Assembly (NCBI GenBank): GCA_003224235.1
Contig: QHYU01000148.1
Coordinates: 1-56,036 of the forward strand
Direction: 5' to 3'
DNA length: 56,036 bases
Source of the DNA: Acidobacteriota bacterium
GTDB taxonomy: Bacteria; Acidobacteriota; Terriglobia; Acidiferrales; UBA7541
Under the pieces are notes generated by a model, which did not search any database, had not been told where the DNA came from, and was given only the letters and a program-made list of their open reading frames with translations. Both the position numbers and the translations under genes were made by a program. Positions 17,262 to 29,238 of the stretch are shown piece by piece. Within the stretch, counting starts at the first letter, position 1, and each line of letters begins with the position of its first letter.

Positions 17262-17983
17262 ATGCGACGTCGCTTCTTCGTCGAACGGTTTGACGGCACG
17301 ACCGCGGCCCTTCGCGGCGAGGCGGCCCACCACCTGGGCCGGGTGCTGCGCGCCCAGCCCGGCCAACTTTATGAGTTGAGTAATGGGGAGGCGCTTTGGC
17401 TCGCCCGCATCGAGCACGCCGGCCGGGATGCGGTTGAATTCGCACTGGTAGAACCGCTGCCGGCCCGCACGCCAAGCTTGCACGTGACTCTTCTGCTCGC
17501 CATCATAAAGTTCGATCGCTTCGAGTGGAGTCTTGAGAAGGCCACGGAACTCGGAGTCGCCGAGATCGTTCCACTGGCCGCGGCCCGCAGTGAAAAGTCA
17601 CTGGTCGCGGCGGCGGCGAAGCGCGCTGCGCGTTGGCAGAAGATTCTGCTCGAGTCGGCGCAGCACCGCCTCCGCATCCTGGAGATTCCTGCGCGCCATC
17701 GCCGGCGTCGCGGAGGGAAGTCCAAAATTGCCGGGTTCTGTCCGAGCGGCCCGAGGCGCCACCCCTTCGCTCCGCCCTGGAAGGAAAGAAAACGGCGCCT
17801 GAGCAGAAGGCCGCCGCATCGGCGCTGCTGGCCGTGGGCCCTGAAGGCGGCTGGACCGATGAGGAGCTTTCCGCGGCGCGCGCTGGAGGATTTCTGGAAA
17901 TCTCGCTTGGCCCGAACATCCTACGGACCGAAACCGCGGTCATCGCCGCACTGGCTGCCCTGACCTATGCGCTTGGCGATTAA
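17262..17983 (+). pseudogene. rsmE: 16S rRNA m3U1498 methyltransferase RsmE, disrupted
   Basis: The N-terminal half is normal: MRRRFFVERFDG, GEAAHHLGRVLRAQPGQLYE, IKFDRFEWSLEKATELGVAE and WQKILLESAQ. After ESAQ a 79-bp segment identical to the glycosyltransferase gene downstream replaces the native sequence. The frame then runs into unrelated residues until 17963. The native C-terminus resumes in another frame from about 17735: VLSERPEAPPLRSALEG, LLAVGPEGGWTDEEL and LGPNILRTETAVIAALAAL, which form the SAM-binding trefoil knot. As read, the product would lack the knot and be inactive. ATG 17262 is the start. A true mutation or an assembly artefact are both possible. Confidence 0.85.
17656..17734 (+). 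repeat. 79-bp inverted repeat, copy inside rsmE
   Basis: Every base is identical to the reverse complement of 19175-19253; the flanking bases 17655 and 17735 differ. It encodes in frame the peptide QHRLRILEIPARHRRRR, which belongs to the glycosyltransferase family and not to RsmE, so this is the recipient copy. Confidence 0.9.
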
Positions 17984-18140
17984 CCGGCAGGGCAGGACCA
18001 AGATTTCTTGCTTGCCCTGTGGAAGTTCTCTCTTGGCGAGGGAAGGGCATTCATTTAGGATAGCCACTGTTCCGCGCAAGAGCGCGGGGATTAACGCAGG
18101 CACTGAAACGGAAAAGCAAAGCACGAGTCGCGACGCGCTA

Positions 18141-19079
18141 ATGCATCCACCGAGCAGCTCCCTTCACGCAAGCCAGACGCATGCTCCTCGAGGCCTTTAC
18201 TTCCTTAGCCTCCTCGGCCTCCTCTCTTTCCTAGGCCTCCCCGCTGCCGCACAGACCCGCCCGCTGCGTACCACCGAGGCTGAAGTTCTGCCGCCGGGCA
18301 CGCTGCGCGCGCAGGTCGGCTTCGACTTCCTCCAAGAGGTAGACTTTCCGCTCAGCGGCCTCACGGGCGATCTCACCTCAGTCGGCGTGATTAACGTCCG
18401 GCTGGGCGTGGGCAAGATGGTCGAGGTGCAATTGGAAGGCGCGGTGCAGAATTTCCTGGACGCGAAGCGAAAGTCAGGCGGCTTCGTGCCGCTGGAGCTG
18501 GATGGCGCCTGCACCACGCCTTCGGGCGCCGGCCAACTCTCCGGCTGCTCGACGAACGATACCGGTGACTTTTCGCTCGCCACCAAGATTCGCATCTGGC
18601 GCGAGAGCGACCGCCGGCCGGCCCTAGCCATGCGCTTCGGATTCAAGATGCCCAACTCGAAGCAGAACCGGGGCATCGGGACCAATTCGACCGACGTATT
18701 CGCAGCATTCATCCTGCAAAAGCATTTCGGCCGATTGGACGTCTTCGGCAATGTCGGGCTAGCGATTCTCCAGGCGTCCAACACGAAATTTTCGCAGAAC
18801 GACGTGATCATCTACGGCGGAGCGTTCGCCTTTCCTTTGCATCCGCGGCTGAAGGTGGTGGGCGAGGTCGCCGGGCGGCAATCCACGCGCAAGATCACCG
18901 CGGACCTGACCGGCACCGAGAGCCGCTCGCAGGCCCGCTTCGGTCTTCAGATTTTCACCGGCGGATTCCAGTGGGATCTGGCCGGAATCGCCGGGCTAAC
19001 CAAAACCGACGCCCGCAGCGGGTTTACCTTCGGGATCAGCAAGGACATCCATCTCTTCGACTATGGCAGAGTCCAGTAG
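18141..19079 (+). CDS. secreted beta-barrel outer-membrane-like protein of unknown function
   Basis: This 312-residue protein has a signal peptide (LYFLSLLGLLSFLGLPAAAQ) and a mature part made of alternating amphipathic strands: LRAQVGFDFLQEVDFPLSG, VGVINVRLGVGKMVEVQLE, LAMRFGFKMPNSKQNRG, VFGNVGLAILQ and a final GFTFGISKDIHLFDYGRVQ. The pattern resembles transporter-like or MetA-pathway-type barrels of unknown substrate. An aromatic or hydrophobic C-terminal strand is present but the last residue is Gln. ATG 18141 fits the signal peptide; no clear ribosome-binding site is visible. It ends 22 bases from the convergent glycosyltransferase gene. Confidence 0.7.
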   Translation: MHPPSSSLHASQTHAPRGLYFLSLLGLLSFLGLPAAAQTRPLRTTEAEVLPPGTLRAQVGFDFLQEVDFPLSGLTGDLTSVGVINVRLGVGKMVEVQLEGAVQNFLDAKRKSGGFVPLELDGACTTPSGAGQLSGCSTNDTGDFSLATKIRIWRESDRRPALAMRFGFKMPNSKQNRGIGTNSTDVFAAFILQKHFGRLDVFGNVGLAILQASNTKFSQNDVIIYGGAFAFPLHPRLKVVGEVAGRQSTRKITADLTGTESRSQARFGLQIFTGGFQWDLAGIAGLTKTDARSGFTFGISKDIHLFDYGRVQ

Positions 19080-19101
19080 TTGTCAGTCTTTCCCTCGCCC
19101 C

Positions 19102-19821
19102 TTAGCTCGAGAAGCGGTAGCGCAGAATCGTCCAGATAATTTTTGCTGCTGCGAGAAGGCTGCCGCGAATGCTGCCGGCAATTTTGGACTTCCCTCCGCG
19201 ACGCCGGCGATGGCGCGCAGGAATCTCCAGGATGCGGAGGCGGTGCTGCGCCGCCTTGATCTGCATCTCGGTGGTCCAGCCGAAATTGGTGTCGCGCATT
19301 CCAATGCGGTCGAGGGCATCGCGGCGGATGGCGCGAAAGGGGCCGAGGTCGGTGAAGCGCGCCCCATAGAATACGCGCATCAGAAATGTAGCCAGCAAGT
19401 TGCCGAACTGCTGCTGCGGAGTGAGTGAGCCGGTCTCACGTTGGCCCAGCACGCGCGAACCGAGCACGAGATCCGCCTCGCCGCGCTCGATCGGGGCGAT
19501 CAGGCGCGACAACTCGGCGGGGTCGTCGCTGCCGTCGGCGTCCATGAAGGCGATGATGTCCGCCTGCGGTTCGACGGCCGCAATCCCCGCCAGACACGCC
19601 TGCCCATAGCCGCGCCGCGGCTCCAGGACAACCTGGGCGCCGCGCTCCCGCGCTACCGCGGCGGTCCGGTCGGTGGAGGCATTGTCCACAACGATGATCT
19701 GCGCGAGCGCCAGTCCCGGCAGGCCGTCTAGCTGGGTTGCGCGAGCGAGTTCGTCGAGCATGGCAGCAACGTTCTGCTCTTCGTCAAGCGCCGGGAGGAT
19801 TAAGGCAACGCGGGGCGCCAT
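19102..19821 (-). CDS. family 2 glycosyltransferase (polyprenyl-phosphate type)
   Basis: This 239-residue GT-A fold enzyme has LILPALDEEQNVAAMLDEL, the nucleotide-sugar region IIVVDNASTDRTAAVARERG, the metal-binding MDADGSDDP, and TDLGPFRAIRRDALDRIGM followed by NFGWTTEMQIKAA. The C-terminal LRILEIPARHRRRRGGKSK block is typical of dolichyl-phosphate-mannose or undecaprenyl-phosphate-glucose synthases. It probably transfers a sugar from a nucleotide to a lipid carrier at the inner membrane. ATG 19821 is the best start; no ribosome-binding site is evident. Its C-terminal coding DNA is the donor of the 79-bp segment in rsmE. Confidence 0.85.
   Translation of the reverse strand: MAPRVALILPALDEEQNVAAMLDELARATQLDGLPGLALAQIIVVDNASTDRTAAVARERGAQVVLEPRRGYGQACLAGIAAVEPQADIIAFMDADGSDDPAELSRLIAPIERGEADLVLGSRVLGQRETGSLTPQQQFGNLLATFLMRVFYGARFTDLGPFRAIRRDALDRIGMRDTNFGWTTEMQIKAAQHRLRILEIPARHRRRRGGKSKIAGSIRGSLLAAAKIIWTILRYRFSS
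19175..19253 (-). repeat. 79-bp inverted repeat, donor copy inside the glycosyltransferase gene
   Basis: Perfect reverse complement of 17656-17734, lying 1.44 kb away. It encodes a conserved family motif in its native frame here, which makes this the original copy. Confidence 0.9.
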
Positions 19822-25200: not shown

Positions 25201-25252
25201 CTTTCTGATCTGCAGGGTATGTGTTGATCCGGGTCCCGAGCACGGGTTGCGG

Positions 25253-25258
25253 TACAAT
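25253..25258 (+). promoter_or_regulatory. -10 box of the DapA-like gene, leaderless arrangement
   Basis: TACAAT ends six bases before ATG 25265, placing the predicted transcription start at the start codon. A TTGATC at 25224-25229 is too far (23-base spacer) to be a standard -35. Confidence 0.45.
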
Positions 25259-25264
25259 GCCGCC

Positions 25265-26164
25265 ATGAAGCTTCATGGCATCTTTCCACCCCTGACCACT
25301 CCCTTCACAAGCGAGGGTGCTCTCGCGCTTGACCGCCTCCGCGAGAATATCGGCAAGTACAACCACACGCACCTCGCCGGCTACGTGGTCACTGGCTCGA
25401 CCGGCGAATCGGTGCTGCTCAGCCGAAAGGAAACCGAACAGGTTTGGGCGGCCGCGCGGGCTGCTGCGTCGTCCGAGAAAATCCTGATCGCCGGCACTGG
25501 CGTCGAATCCACTGCCGAGACCATCGAGCGCACCAACTGCGCAGCGGCTTTGGGCTACCACGCGGCCCTGGTCAAAACGCCCCATTACTTCAAGCCGCAG
25601 ATGGATCCCCAAGCCCAGCTCGAGCACTTCCTGCGTGTCGCTGACGCGGCTCGCATCCCGCTGCTGCTCTATTCGGTGCCGCAGTTCACCGGGATCGCGC
25701 TGGAGCCAAGCCTGGTGGTTCGCTTGGCCCAGCACCCCAACATAATTGGCATCAAGGAGAGCTCCGGCAACCTCCCGCGTGTCACCGAGATTATTCACCT
25801 CACGCCAGTGGCGTTTCAGACGCTGGTGGGTTCGGCAGCCACGCTTTACCCATCGCTGGCGGTGGGAGCCGTGGGCGGCATTCTGGCATTGGCGTGCGTT
25901 CTGCCAGAGGCGTGCATCGAGCTTTACGAAGCGGCAACCACGGGCAACGCGCAGCGAGCAAAGGACTTGCAGCACCGGTTGTTGCCGGCAGCCCAGAAGA
26001 TTGTCGCTGAGTTGGGCATCGCGGGAATCAAGCACGCGATGGACTGCACAGGATATTACGGTGGGACCCCGCGGCCGCCGTTGCTGCCGCTGACCGAGGC
26101 GCAGAGGCGCGAGGTGGAAGCGGTGCTTGCTGGCTTCACCTCAGCCGCGAGCGCAGGGAGCTGA
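25265..26164 (+). CDS. DapA/HOGA-type aldolase (dihydrodipicolinate synthase family)
   Basis: This 299-residue class I aldolase is a TIM barrel that forms a Schiff base with pyruvate-like substrates. The family marks are VTGSTGESVLL, the catalytic Tyr in LLLYSVPQFTG, the Schiff-base Lys in IIGIKESSGN and the late GSAATLYPSLAVGAVGG. DapA itself usually has YNVPxRTG; the YSVPxxTG form here is closer to 4-hydroxy-2-oxoglutarate aldolase and other NAL-family members, so a role other than lysine synthesis is possible. ATG 25265 fits the family start; the open frame extends upstream into the pyrimidine-rich repeat. Confidence 0.85.
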   Translation: MKLHGIFPPLTTPFTSEGALALDRLRENIGKYNHTHLAGYVVTGSTGESVLLSRKETEQVWAAARAAASSEKILIAGTGVESTAETIERTNCAAALGYHAALVKTPHYFKPQMDPQAQLEHFLRVADAARIPLLLYSVPQFTGIALEPSLVVRLAQHPNIIGIKESSGNLPRVTEIIHLTPVAFQTLVGSAATLYPSLAVGAVGGILALACVLPEACIELYEAATTGNAQRAKDLQHRLLPAAQKIVAELGIAGIKHAMDCTGYYGGTPRPPLLPLTEAQRREVEAVLAGFTSAASAGS

Positions 26165-26465
26165 CCTCGGTAGGGCAGCCCCGTCCTCTCCGAACTCCAG
26201 CTTAGCAGCCAAGTCAGTTACGGCCTTCATCCTGTCAGCTGGAAGCATGCGCTGTTTGGCGGCCCGCCCGTCCGCGTGTTTTGAGGACCGCCAGCGAGAC
26301 GCCAGCCCCCAGCTCGTGCCGCAACGCTCTGCGCGACCTCGGCTGCGCAGCACCCACTGATGCCTTCCAGCTTAGCGCGCCCCTATGATGCATCGGGCGA
26401 GGTTCGAGATCGGCTGTCCTCCTTCACTTCTCAGCCGTATGGCCAGCGCGGCTGGTAGAGCAAAT
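26165..26465. other. intergenic stretch between the aldolase gene and the first APH-fold gene
   Basis: About 300 bases with no supported gene; the two flanking genes are convergent. The last 50 bases (from about 26414) belong to the inverted duplication. They contain CAGCCG...CGGCTG, a possible 6-bp stem that has a counterpart after the second copy. Confidence 0.45.
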
Positions 26466-27479
26466 TCAATTTGCCTCTTGGTCCAGAATACGAAGGCCTT
26501 CGTCCAGCATAGCCTCAGCTCTCTCGCGCCGTTCGCGAGTCTGCTTAACAACATCACGTTTCGCACCCTCCAGGCAGATCGCTGCTTTCTGAAACGCCAG
26601 GTGCGCCGTAACATACGAGCGGCCTGTGGCGACATAGGTCTTCAGAAATACTTCGGCCGCCCCATCGAGGGCGTGGACTGAACCGAGGTGTTTCAACCCC
26701 ATCCGCTTAAGATAGACGAGCATCCTTGCCACGTCGTGGCTCGGGTCTGCCACTTTATAGGTGTCCCAATCGACCGTGACTGTGCGGCCTTCAGCCAGAA
26801 GAACCTGACCGCAAGTATACATGCCATGGCCAGCGCACATTTCGGTGGCGCCGAGTCCTAGTGCTGTGGCTTTCAGTTGGTCGAAAAGCCGACCGGCCTT
26901 GTCGGCAAACGGGAAGCCGTGATCCGCAAAGCAACGCCAATGTCCTTCCAAAGAAATTAGCTGATCGCTCAAGCGAAAGACCTGCCCCAAACGGGGTGCT
27001 ATAGAGTGAAAACGTGCCAGCCAGCGCGCACATCGCTCAGCTGCTAGGGCGCGATCGGATTCATTCGGACCCAGAAGAAACACTGTACATCGAGTGCCGG
27101 GCACTTTTTCGTAAAGCAGAAGGCGCAATGGCGCTAGAAACGCTACGGGTCGAGGAATCGCGAACTCATCCTCTGAGCCAAACCCAGCCCGTCTGATTTC
27201 CTCCATAGCTTGATAAACATCTAAGCGGTCCGCGGCGTAGACCTTGCCAATCAGGGAGTAGCAGCCTCTCGTAGTTCCCAACGTAACCTCAAACGTACAG
27301 CGCCCCTTCCCGGGCCGGTGCCTGAGAACTTGCACTCGAACATTTCGAATCGCCCCCCACTCCGAGGGCAACGCCTCAGGAAGGTACTCCCCCAACACAA
27401 TCGGGTCGCAGGCTTTCTGAAGCATCGGGATTGTTGGGTCGCTGACCAGGCATAATTCGGAAAAGTCTAGTTTAGACAT
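26466..27479 (-). CDS. APH-fold phosphotransferase-like protein, copy 1, catalytic Asp missing
   Basis: This 337-residue protein looks like the aminoglycoside/choline kinase fold. It has a lysine-bearing strand (GCYSLIGKVY), a hinge (RLLLYEKVPGT), the catalytic-loop region CAGHGMYTCGQVLL and the metal-binding TVDWDTYKVADPSHDVARML. In active members the loop reads HGD or HRD; here the Asp is Met. The DWD metal site and the Lys are kept. It may be a pseudokinase or use another residue. GGGGAGAG precedes ATG 27479. There is no evidence that it confers antibiotic resistance, and the substrate is unknown. Confidence 0.72.
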   Translation of the reverse strand: MSKLDFSELCLVSDPTIPMLQKACDPIVLGEYLPEALPSEWGAIRNVRVQVLRHRPGKGRCTFEVTLGTTRGCYSLIGKVYAADRLDVYQAMEEIRRAGFGSEDEFAIPRPVAFLAPLRLLLYEKVPGTRCTVFLLGPNESDRALAAERCARWLARFHSIAPRLGQVFRLSDQLISLEGHWRCFADHGFPFADKAGRLFDQLKATALGLGATEMCAGHGMYTCGQVLLAEGRTVTVDWDTYKVADPSHDVARMLVYLKRMGLKHLGSVHALDGAAEVFLKTYVATGRSYVTAHLAFQKAAICLEGAKRDVVKQTRERRERAEAMLDEGLRILDQEAN

Positions 27480-28163
27480 GGCTCTCCCCCTGTCCGGCTA
27501 CCGCAAAGTAACGGCCGTGAAAAACAAAAGCCGAAATCGCCACTGGTGGCTCTAACGCTGCCACTCGCGGCAACTCGGCCGTCTCCAAGTCCACTGGGGC
27601 CCGAACCGCTTGGAGACCCGTGGCTTTCCGCCCCCTGCTCACGCGGGGTTTGGCCTTATTCAGATGTCTGATCCTCGGCTACCACCTAGCCGACGAGGTC
27701 ATGGGTCGCACAGGCTGAGCAAGTGCTTTCGAACTTGAACGTGCCCGTATCTGTGGATTGAGGGTGAGAGAGAACATCGGAAAATATAGGCGCGGCAAAA
27801 AATATCGCGGGCGGAAGGGGGGCCGCCCACTTCTTTGGTCGCGGCCGAGTGGCCGTGCCACTGGAGACAGGCAGCTTAACAAGAACGGGTACGCGAGGGC
27901 TACACTGCCCCCGGCACCCTTTTTATAAGTACCATCAGTACTGTAGGCTGTCTAAATCTCCTTGCGAGACGAAGACTTCACTCCCGCCGGTTGTCGCCGC
28001 TGGCGGACTGAAAATTTTTCGCCGCCGCTATATTTTTTGGGCTCCTGCCGGACCCTACATATAAGTACGAGACCGTCCCCTTAGCGGCACTGCCAGGTCT
28101 GCCAGCCAAGTCCCCAGGCTCGACATTCTATGCGGGTCGTAATCTGCGAGAGGGTGAAAGACC
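27480..28163. other. hairpin-rich noncoding centre between the inverted APH-fold genes
   Basis: This divergent 684-bp stretch holds no plausible gene but many symmetric elements. GCCACTGGTGGC is at 27539-27550. GTCTCCAAG (27581-27589) pairs with CTTGGAGAC (27609-27617). CCCC and GGGG lie around 27632-27648. TCGGCTA-CCACC-TAGCCGA is at 27675-27693. CAAAAAATATCGCGG (27796-27810) pairs with 28025-28039 at 14 of 15 positions. TATAAGTAC occurs at 27924 and 28060, the first as half of an AGTAC-GTACT palindrome. The first four hairpins within 155 bases suggest a structured RNA or regulatory leader. Confidence 0.5.
27581..27617. other. perfect 9-bp stem-loop in the noncoding centre
   Basis: GTCTCCAAG and CTTGGAGAC are exact complements around a 19-base loop. 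It is the strongest of four hairpins in 27539-27693 and has no T-tract, so it is more likely part of an RNA structure than a terminator. Confidence 0.45.
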
Positions 28164-29180
28164 ATGTCTGAACTAGACTCTTCCGAATCATGCCTGGCGA
28201 GCGACCCAGGAATCCCAACCCTTCAGAAAGCCTGCGACCCGGTTGTGTTGGGGGAGTACCTTCCTGAGGTCTTGCCCTCGGAATGGGGGGCAATTCGAAA
28301 CGTTCGACTGCAAGTTCTCAGGCACTATCCCAGGACCCACCCCCGCTGTACCTTTGAAATCACGTTGGGAACTACGAGAGGCTGCTACTCCCTGATTGGC
28401 AAGGTCTACGCCGAGGACCGCTCAGATGTTTATCAAGCTATGGAGGAAATCAGACGAGCTGGGTTTGGCTCAGAGGACGAGTTCGCGATTCCTCGACCCG
28501 TAGCGTTTCTAGCGCCATTGCGCCTTCTGCTCTACGAAAAAGCTCCCGGCACTTCAACTAAAGTGCTTATTCTGAGTCCGAATGAATCTGTTCGCGTCCT
28601 GGCAGCTGAGCGGTGCGCGCGCTGGCTGGCACGTTTTCAGGCTATGGCACCCCGTTCGGGGCGGGTCGTTCGCCCGAGCGATCAACTGATTTCTTTGGAA
28701 GGATGGTGGCGGTGCCTTGCCGACCTCGGCGGTTCGCTTGCCGACAAGGCGAGCCGGCTTTTTGAACAGCTGAAAGCCACAGCACTGGGGCTCGGCAGCA
28801 TCGAAATGTGCGCTGGCCATGGCATGTATACTTGCAGTCAGGTTCTTCTGCTTGAAGGCCGCACAGTTACGGTCGATTGGGACAGCTTTAACGTGGCAGA
28901 CCCTAGCCACGACGTGGCAAGGATGCTCGTCTATCTTAAGCGGGTGGGGTTGAAACACCTCGGTTCAGTCCACGCCCTCGACGGGGCGGCCGAAGTATTT
29001 CTGAAGACCTATGTCGCCACAGGCCGCGCGTATGTTAGGACGCGCCTGGCGTTTCAGAAAGCAGCGATCTGCCTGGAGCGTGCGAAACGTGATGTTGCTA
29101 AGCAGGCTCACGGATGGCGCGAAGACGCCGAGATGATGCTGGACGAAGGCCTCCGTATGCTGGAGCAAGAGCTAAATTGA
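28164..29180 (+). CDS. APH-fold phosphotransferase-like protein, copy 2, catalytic Asp missing
   Basis: This 338-residue paralogue of the protein at 26466-27479 is in the opposite orientation. The same landmarks are kept: GCYSLIGKVYAEDR, RLLLYEKAPGT, CAGHGMYTCSQVLL and TVDWDSFNVADPSHDVARML. The HGM in place of HGD is conserved in both copies while much of the surface has diverged, so the change predates the duplication and is probably tolerated or selected. GAGGGTGAAAG precedes the ATG. Divergence is concentrated at residues about 130-200 and at the C-terminus, which might be where ligand or partner specificity differs. Confidence 0.72.
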   Translation: MSELDSSESCLASDPGIPTLQKACDPVVLGEYLPEVLPSEWGAIRNVRLQVLRHYPRTHPRCTFEITLGTTRGCYSLIGKVYAEDRSDVYQAMEEIRRAGFGSEDEFAIPRPVAFLAPLRLLLYEKAPGTSTKVLILSPNESVRVLAAERCARWLARFQAMAPRSGRVVRPSDQLISLEGWWRCLADLGGSLADKASRLFEQLKATALGLGSIEMCAGHGMYTCSQVLLLEGRTVTVDWDSFNVADPSHDVARMLVYLKRVGLKHLGSVHALDGAAEVFLKTYVATGRAYVRTRLAFQKAAICLERAKRDVAKQAHGWREDAEMMLDEGLRMLEQELN

Positions 29181-29238
29181 TATGCTCTACCAGCCGCGCC
29201 GGCTTACCGGCTGAGAAGGGAAGGAGGACAGAACAGCA

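Follow-up and report, generated by a model that had tools for sequence, protein, structure and literature searches.

A 79-bp inverted copy of a glycosyltransferase gene segment within rsmE of an Acidobacteriota draft genome

The locus lies in a window of 56,036 nucleotides (the window being the whole stretch of DNA that was analysed) from an Acidobacteriota draft genome. It comprises rsmE, whose product is an enzyme methylating ribosomal RNA, a gene for an outer-membrane-type protein, and a gene for a family 2 glycosyltransferase (GT2) on the opposite strand. The coordinates of these features, together with those of a pair of paralogous genes further downstream, are listed in Table 1. Six of eight relatives have a homologue of the outer-membrane-type protein gene in the same position.

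Table 1. Coordinates in the window of the rsmE-GT2 locus and of the paralogous gene pair
Feature	Position	Strand	Evidence
rsmE, native N-terminal part, 134 aa, with the PUA domain and the beginning of the SPOUT methyltransferase domain	17262..17663	+	PF20260 (PUA_4); PF04452 profile positions 4-66
Patch in rsmE from the GT2 gene, 79 bp	17656..17734	+	79/79 match to the reverse complement of 19175-19253; relatives differ here
rsmE, native C-terminal part, out of frame relative to the N-terminal part	17735..17983	+	PF04452 positions 113-164, in another frame
Outer-membrane-type protein gene between the arms, untouched	18141..19079	+	Open reading frame; weak PF13557 match
GT2 gene, intact donor	19102..19821	-	PF00535, E 7.5e-25
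Donor arm, native C-terminal part of the GT2 gene	19175..19253	-	Alignable counterpart in GT2 of seven relatives
Paralogous gene pair	26466-27479 / 28164-29180	- / +	Diverged inverted repeat

The patch in rsmE and the donor arm in the GT2 gene form an inverted repeat that is identical at all 79 positions, with mismatches directly outside and a spacer of 1440 nt between the two arms. In the 60-nt flanks of the arms, identity was 18/60 and 16/60, which is the background level. The longest inverted matches in three order-2 Markov surrogates of the window measured 17, 18, and 20 nt, and the 79-nt match is therefore far above chance. No third copy of the 79-nt sequence was found in the 4.57-Mb assembly, where it occurs at two places only. 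The perfect repeat with mismatched edges that had been reported in the preliminary description of this DNA was thus recovered unchanged.

The direction of copying was judged from the gene neighborhoods of the eight relatives, which belong to the same family. They keep the order grpE, dnaJ, rsmE, the membrane protein gene, the GT2 gene in reversed orientation, and lepB; the exceptions were one neighborhood in which no GT2 gene was found at this place (L055), two without a match to the membrane protein, and one on a short contig that begins inside dnaJ (L056). The GT2 gene of the window is colinear with those of seven relatives along its whole length, and this arm is native, because no break interrupts the alignment of the seven GT2 proteins across the donor segment. 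The GT2 protein of the same-genus genome carries an equivalent stretch, e.g., AAQRRLRVREIPVRHRRRRGGKSKVS. In the relatives, RsmE has the sequence A/SAQQ(S/A)RR... as far as LSE, and between the SAQ and LSE(R) codons the eight genes contain 90, 96, 96, 96, 96, 99, 117, and 132 native nucleotides, the same-genus genome having 117. In the window, 74 nt separate the SAQ and LSER codons, and nearly all of them, bar the last few, are patch. Nucleotide homology to the rsmE genes of the relatives stops in most hits at query position 426, corresponding to window position 17665, the last base of the left-edge microhomology described below, and it resumes from ~17735, right after the right edge of the patch.

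Read against these relatives, the copying went one way, from the GT2 gene into rsmE, and a native rsmE stretch of about 90 to 130 nt was probably replaced by ~70 nt of GT2 sequence, the lost segment probably being longer than the patch. The assignment of donor and recipient and the replacement of native rsmE had already been proposed, as had the GT2-type nature of the encoded peptide and its foreignness to RsmE. The relatives bear out both proposals, since the stretch is found in their GT2 proteins and absent from their RsmE proteins. That the replaced segment was of similar length is only roughly correct, with 90 to 132 nt in the eight relatives compared to 74 nt in the window and a shifted frame.

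The N-terminal part of the window's rsmE shares 73 to 78% amino acid identity with the eight relatives, and the C-terminal part, in which stop codons are absent, shares 50 to 70%. Positions 67 to 112 of the PF04452 profile are missing from rsmE of this genome. The left junction keeps the codon phase, as SAQ and AAQ coincide there; the right junction shifts the frame of the C-terminal third. Both halves are otherwise without damage. A further rsmE copy, which would render the break harmless, was looked for in the same genome and not found, PF04452 matching the two halves only. As assembled, the sole rsmE of this genome is thus broken, carrying the patch and a frame shift and lacking its middle; neither the loss of frame nor the breakage of the only rsmE had formed part of the preliminary description. 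Among the 37 genomes of the family, rsmE was matched in 33 (the present genome included), and only the present genome showed two pieces without the middle. The RsmE match in genome G027 (L016) was also split. It was considered as a second patch and rejected, as it reflects an in-frame loop insertion of ~40 aa before the last third of the protein, downstream of the patch site.

At the left edge the donor reads GGCGGCGCAGCACCGC, and the rsmE genes of the relatives read, e.g., TCGGCGCAGCAA. The first 10 nt of the patch (17656-17665) represent a shared microhomology, CGGCGCAGCA, so that the strictly foreign part measures ~69 nt. This 10-nt sequence was very probably common to the donor and rsmE before the event, as judged from the SAQQ codons of the relatives, which support the short left-edge homology suggested earlier. 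A microhomology of at least 10 nt arises at 2.65e-5 of random junctions in the window. At the right edge, the sequence common to the donor and the continuing rsmE is no longer than CCGG (≤4 nt). With no differences at 79 sites, the upper 95% bound of the divergence since copying is ~3.8% (3/79), compared to 22% nucleotide divergence between rsmE of the window and that of the same-genus genome. Because of this difference the event is read as recent, and both rsmE halves are otherwise undamaged; it is young, or else absent from the organism altogether.

To place the repeat in context, isolated perfect repeats were searched for in ~1.13 Mb of the same genome and 0.8 Mb of three relatives (the same-genus genome not among them). 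Neither set contained another isolated inverted patch of like size. In the ~1.13 Mb there was no other inverted duplication of at least 30 nt with a kilobase spacer, paralogous genes aside, and in the 0.8 Mb of the three relatives there were no isolated repeats longer than 23 nt. The only other isolated repeats of at least 30 nt in the ~1.13 Mb were a 50-bp direct repeat on C15 and a 33-bp hairpin on C61, neither of which is a patch of the rsmE type. The perfect direct repeat (C15:24235-24284 and 25244-25293; L104 4235-4284 and 5244-5293) has copies 959 bp apart with unrelated flanks and consists of the end of a lipoprotein-like gene (209 aa, minus strand) copied into a non-coding stretch; it may be a counterpart of the rsmE patch in direct orientation. 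The C61 repeat, GGGTGCCCCATCCTCGCCTTGTGAGGGTGGGGC, is a perfect inverted repeat with a 101-nt loop (L174 5249-5281 and 5383-5415). Each of its arms is itself hairpin-like, and it looks like an intergenic palindromic repeat.

The window contains a further inverted repeat, 26414-27481 / 28162-29231, which is 82 to 89% identical and is formed by a pair of diverged paralogues (337 and 338 aa) that are transcribed away from one another. A third relative of this family lies on C15 of the same genome (L104 3108-4079). The one paralogue of the pair that was tested had no NCBIfam match; presumably, these proteins are phosphotransferase-like.

We interpret the patch as the product of a recent template switch during replication. 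This switch, of the "four-point" kind, would have led to an inverted template 1.4 kb away and back to the original one, and we give this reading a probability of roughly 60%. In rsmE, the 3′ end of a growing DNA strand would have left its template and annealed, inverted, ~1.4 kb away in the GT2 gene via the 10-nt CGGCGCAGCA. After copying of ~70 to 79 nt of GT2 sequence, the strand would have returned to the rsmE template roughly 90 to 130 nt further on, with the skipped stretch lost, the patch in its place, and rsmE frame-shifted. Copying may also have run in the opposite direction, with entry at the right edge and return through CGGCGCAGCA. A distance of 1.4 kb is comparable to the length of lagging-strand template that is single-stranded at a bacterial fork, and this spacing would make a switch from the leading to the lagging strand the natural geometry. 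A stalled 3′ end meeting an exposed lagging-strand template in a living cell would explain both inversion and distance, and the blocked template stretch would have been skipped. The preliminary description had left the choice between a template switch and a conversion over 1.4 kb. The former is the best available reading, and homologous conversion finds no support in flanks with 18 and 16 matches in 60 positions. We regard the patch as a mutation and propose no function for it. The fuller scenario, in which a natural population lost RsmE through a 1.4-kb inverted switch at the fork that was primed by 10 nt and skipped ~100 nt of template, is a tentative one that we consider rather improbable in all its parts.

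Several points weigh against a template switch. The junctions are known from one scaffolded draft assembly, a broken rsmE is unusual within the family, and template-switching inverted repeats tend to have short spacers, far below 1.4 kb (PMC8604942). The main and strongest competing explanation is a draft-assembly artefact, in which the GT2 piece entered rsmE through a chimeric molecule or an erroneous local closure of a gap and the rsmE of the organism is intact; we consider it a serious possibility, although not the favored one. The assembly is a fragmented, scaffolded draft of 237 contigs with N gaps (35 N at C141:56037 and others of 184 and 171 N). The 35 N occupy positions 56037-56071 of C141, directly after the last base of the window, and represent a scaffold gap or a masked stretch. 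Some scaffold-closing programs join sequences on overlaps down to 10 bp. An artefact and a very recent event would explain equally well why the arms are identical and the two rsmE parts undamaged. Moreover, chimeras formed during multiple displacement amplification (MDA) are inverted in 85% of cases, mostly join sequences less than 10 kb apart, and show 2 to 21 bp of microhomology at the junction (PMC1855051), and the repeat described here has the same signature.

An artefact would, however, require two separate junctions and a return to rsmE at nearly the right place, whereas a single MDA chimera provides one junction, and the donor is still intact. Ordinary library chimeras would be confined to fragments a few hundred bases long and not reach across 1.4 kb. 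A 10-nt overlap is smaller than the usual k-mer of assemblers, so that an error in the assembly graph alone would not create the junction and molecules bearing it would have to have existed. In addition, MDA-type data might have left several inverted duplications, but no other was present in the ~1.13 Mb of this genome, paralogous genes and the short hairpin aside. These points lean towards a real event without settling the question.

A second alternative, which we consider highly improbable, is a double-strand break in rsmE followed by end joining with templated filler, either of the Ku type or assisted by a reverse transcriptase. A resected end would anneal by microhomology to the nearby GT2 gene, copy ~70 nt, and join the other end. 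The net loss of native sequence together with a templated insert with microhomology fits this course, and the genome encodes two Ku proteins, but the sequence bears no mark that separates break repair from a replicative switch. When the genome was searched for a repair reverse transcriptase of the G2L4 type, the only reverse transcriptase that came up was a group II intron maturase of the canonical kind (TIGR04416), encoded on a small contig. Finally, although a perfect 79-bp inverted repeat is a potential substrate for inversion, homologous conversion of paralogous stretches or a functional repeat, such as mobile-element ends or regulatory or phase-variation arms, deserves hardly any credence, as rsmE and the GT2 gene share no homology beyond the patch, the right arm is the coding end of a conserved GT2 gene, the interval holds a conserved neighbor gene, the arrangement is missing from all relatives examined, and the host gene is broken.

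If real, the locus represents a clean natural two-switch inverted copying event in a bacterium, in which donor, recipient, likely ancestral state, and microhomology can all be read and by which a conserved rRNA methyltransferase was knocked out in a single step. As a fossil of a leading-to-lagging switch, it would indicate that, in wild bacteria, switches of this type can span distances of Okazaki-fragment size. In draft genomes, events of this kind look exactly like frameshifts or assembly errors; if the patch is an artefact, its signature is useful for checking drafts.

Inverted MDA chimeras (PMC1855051) resemble the rsmE patch in their orientation, in a distance of less than 10 kb, and in the microhomology at the junction, but they have one junction each with an intervening deletion, whereas the present sequence is back in rsmE after 79 nt. 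In Escherichia coli, template switching between inverted sequences is established from quasipalindromes and thyA and lacZ reporters (PMC7202029; reviewed in PMC10710837). As in these quasipalindrome mutations, a nascent strand would have copied an inverted nearby template and left a perfect inverted repeat. The E. coli mutations arise only where an imperfect palindrome with a short spacer already exists, and they change few bases, in contrast to the ~10-nt prior match and the ~70 nt copied across 1.4 kb proposed here. Correction of a quasipalindrome was therefore rejected for rsmE, which shared just ~10 nt with the GT2 gene beforehand, at 1.4 kb. That the known bacterial template switches mostly concern close quasipalindromes counts against a switch over this distance.

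The closest likeness is to the four-point template switches of great apes, whose tracts have a median of 12 and a maximum of 128 nt in the gold-standard set (PMC7954356), a range that includes the 79-nt tract described here. Shared features are the inverted copy of a nearby sequence, the resulting perfect inverted repeat, the unrelated flanks, the two switch points with return to the original template, and the change in target length. The tract in rsmE is likewise a perfect reverse complement of a nearby segment kept in place in an intact GT2 gene, and the ancestral state without the tract is represented by the intact rsmE genes of the eight relatives with their 90 to 132 native nucleotides. 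Switch points of this class often, though not necessarily, show short homology; in rsmE it amounts to 10 nt on the left and at most 4 nt on the right. The great ape events are local, whereas the present one concerns a bacterium, has its donor 1.4 kb away, and replaced a longer native stretch. The rsmE patch is thus a new instance of an already known mutational kind, long for its type and of modest interest.
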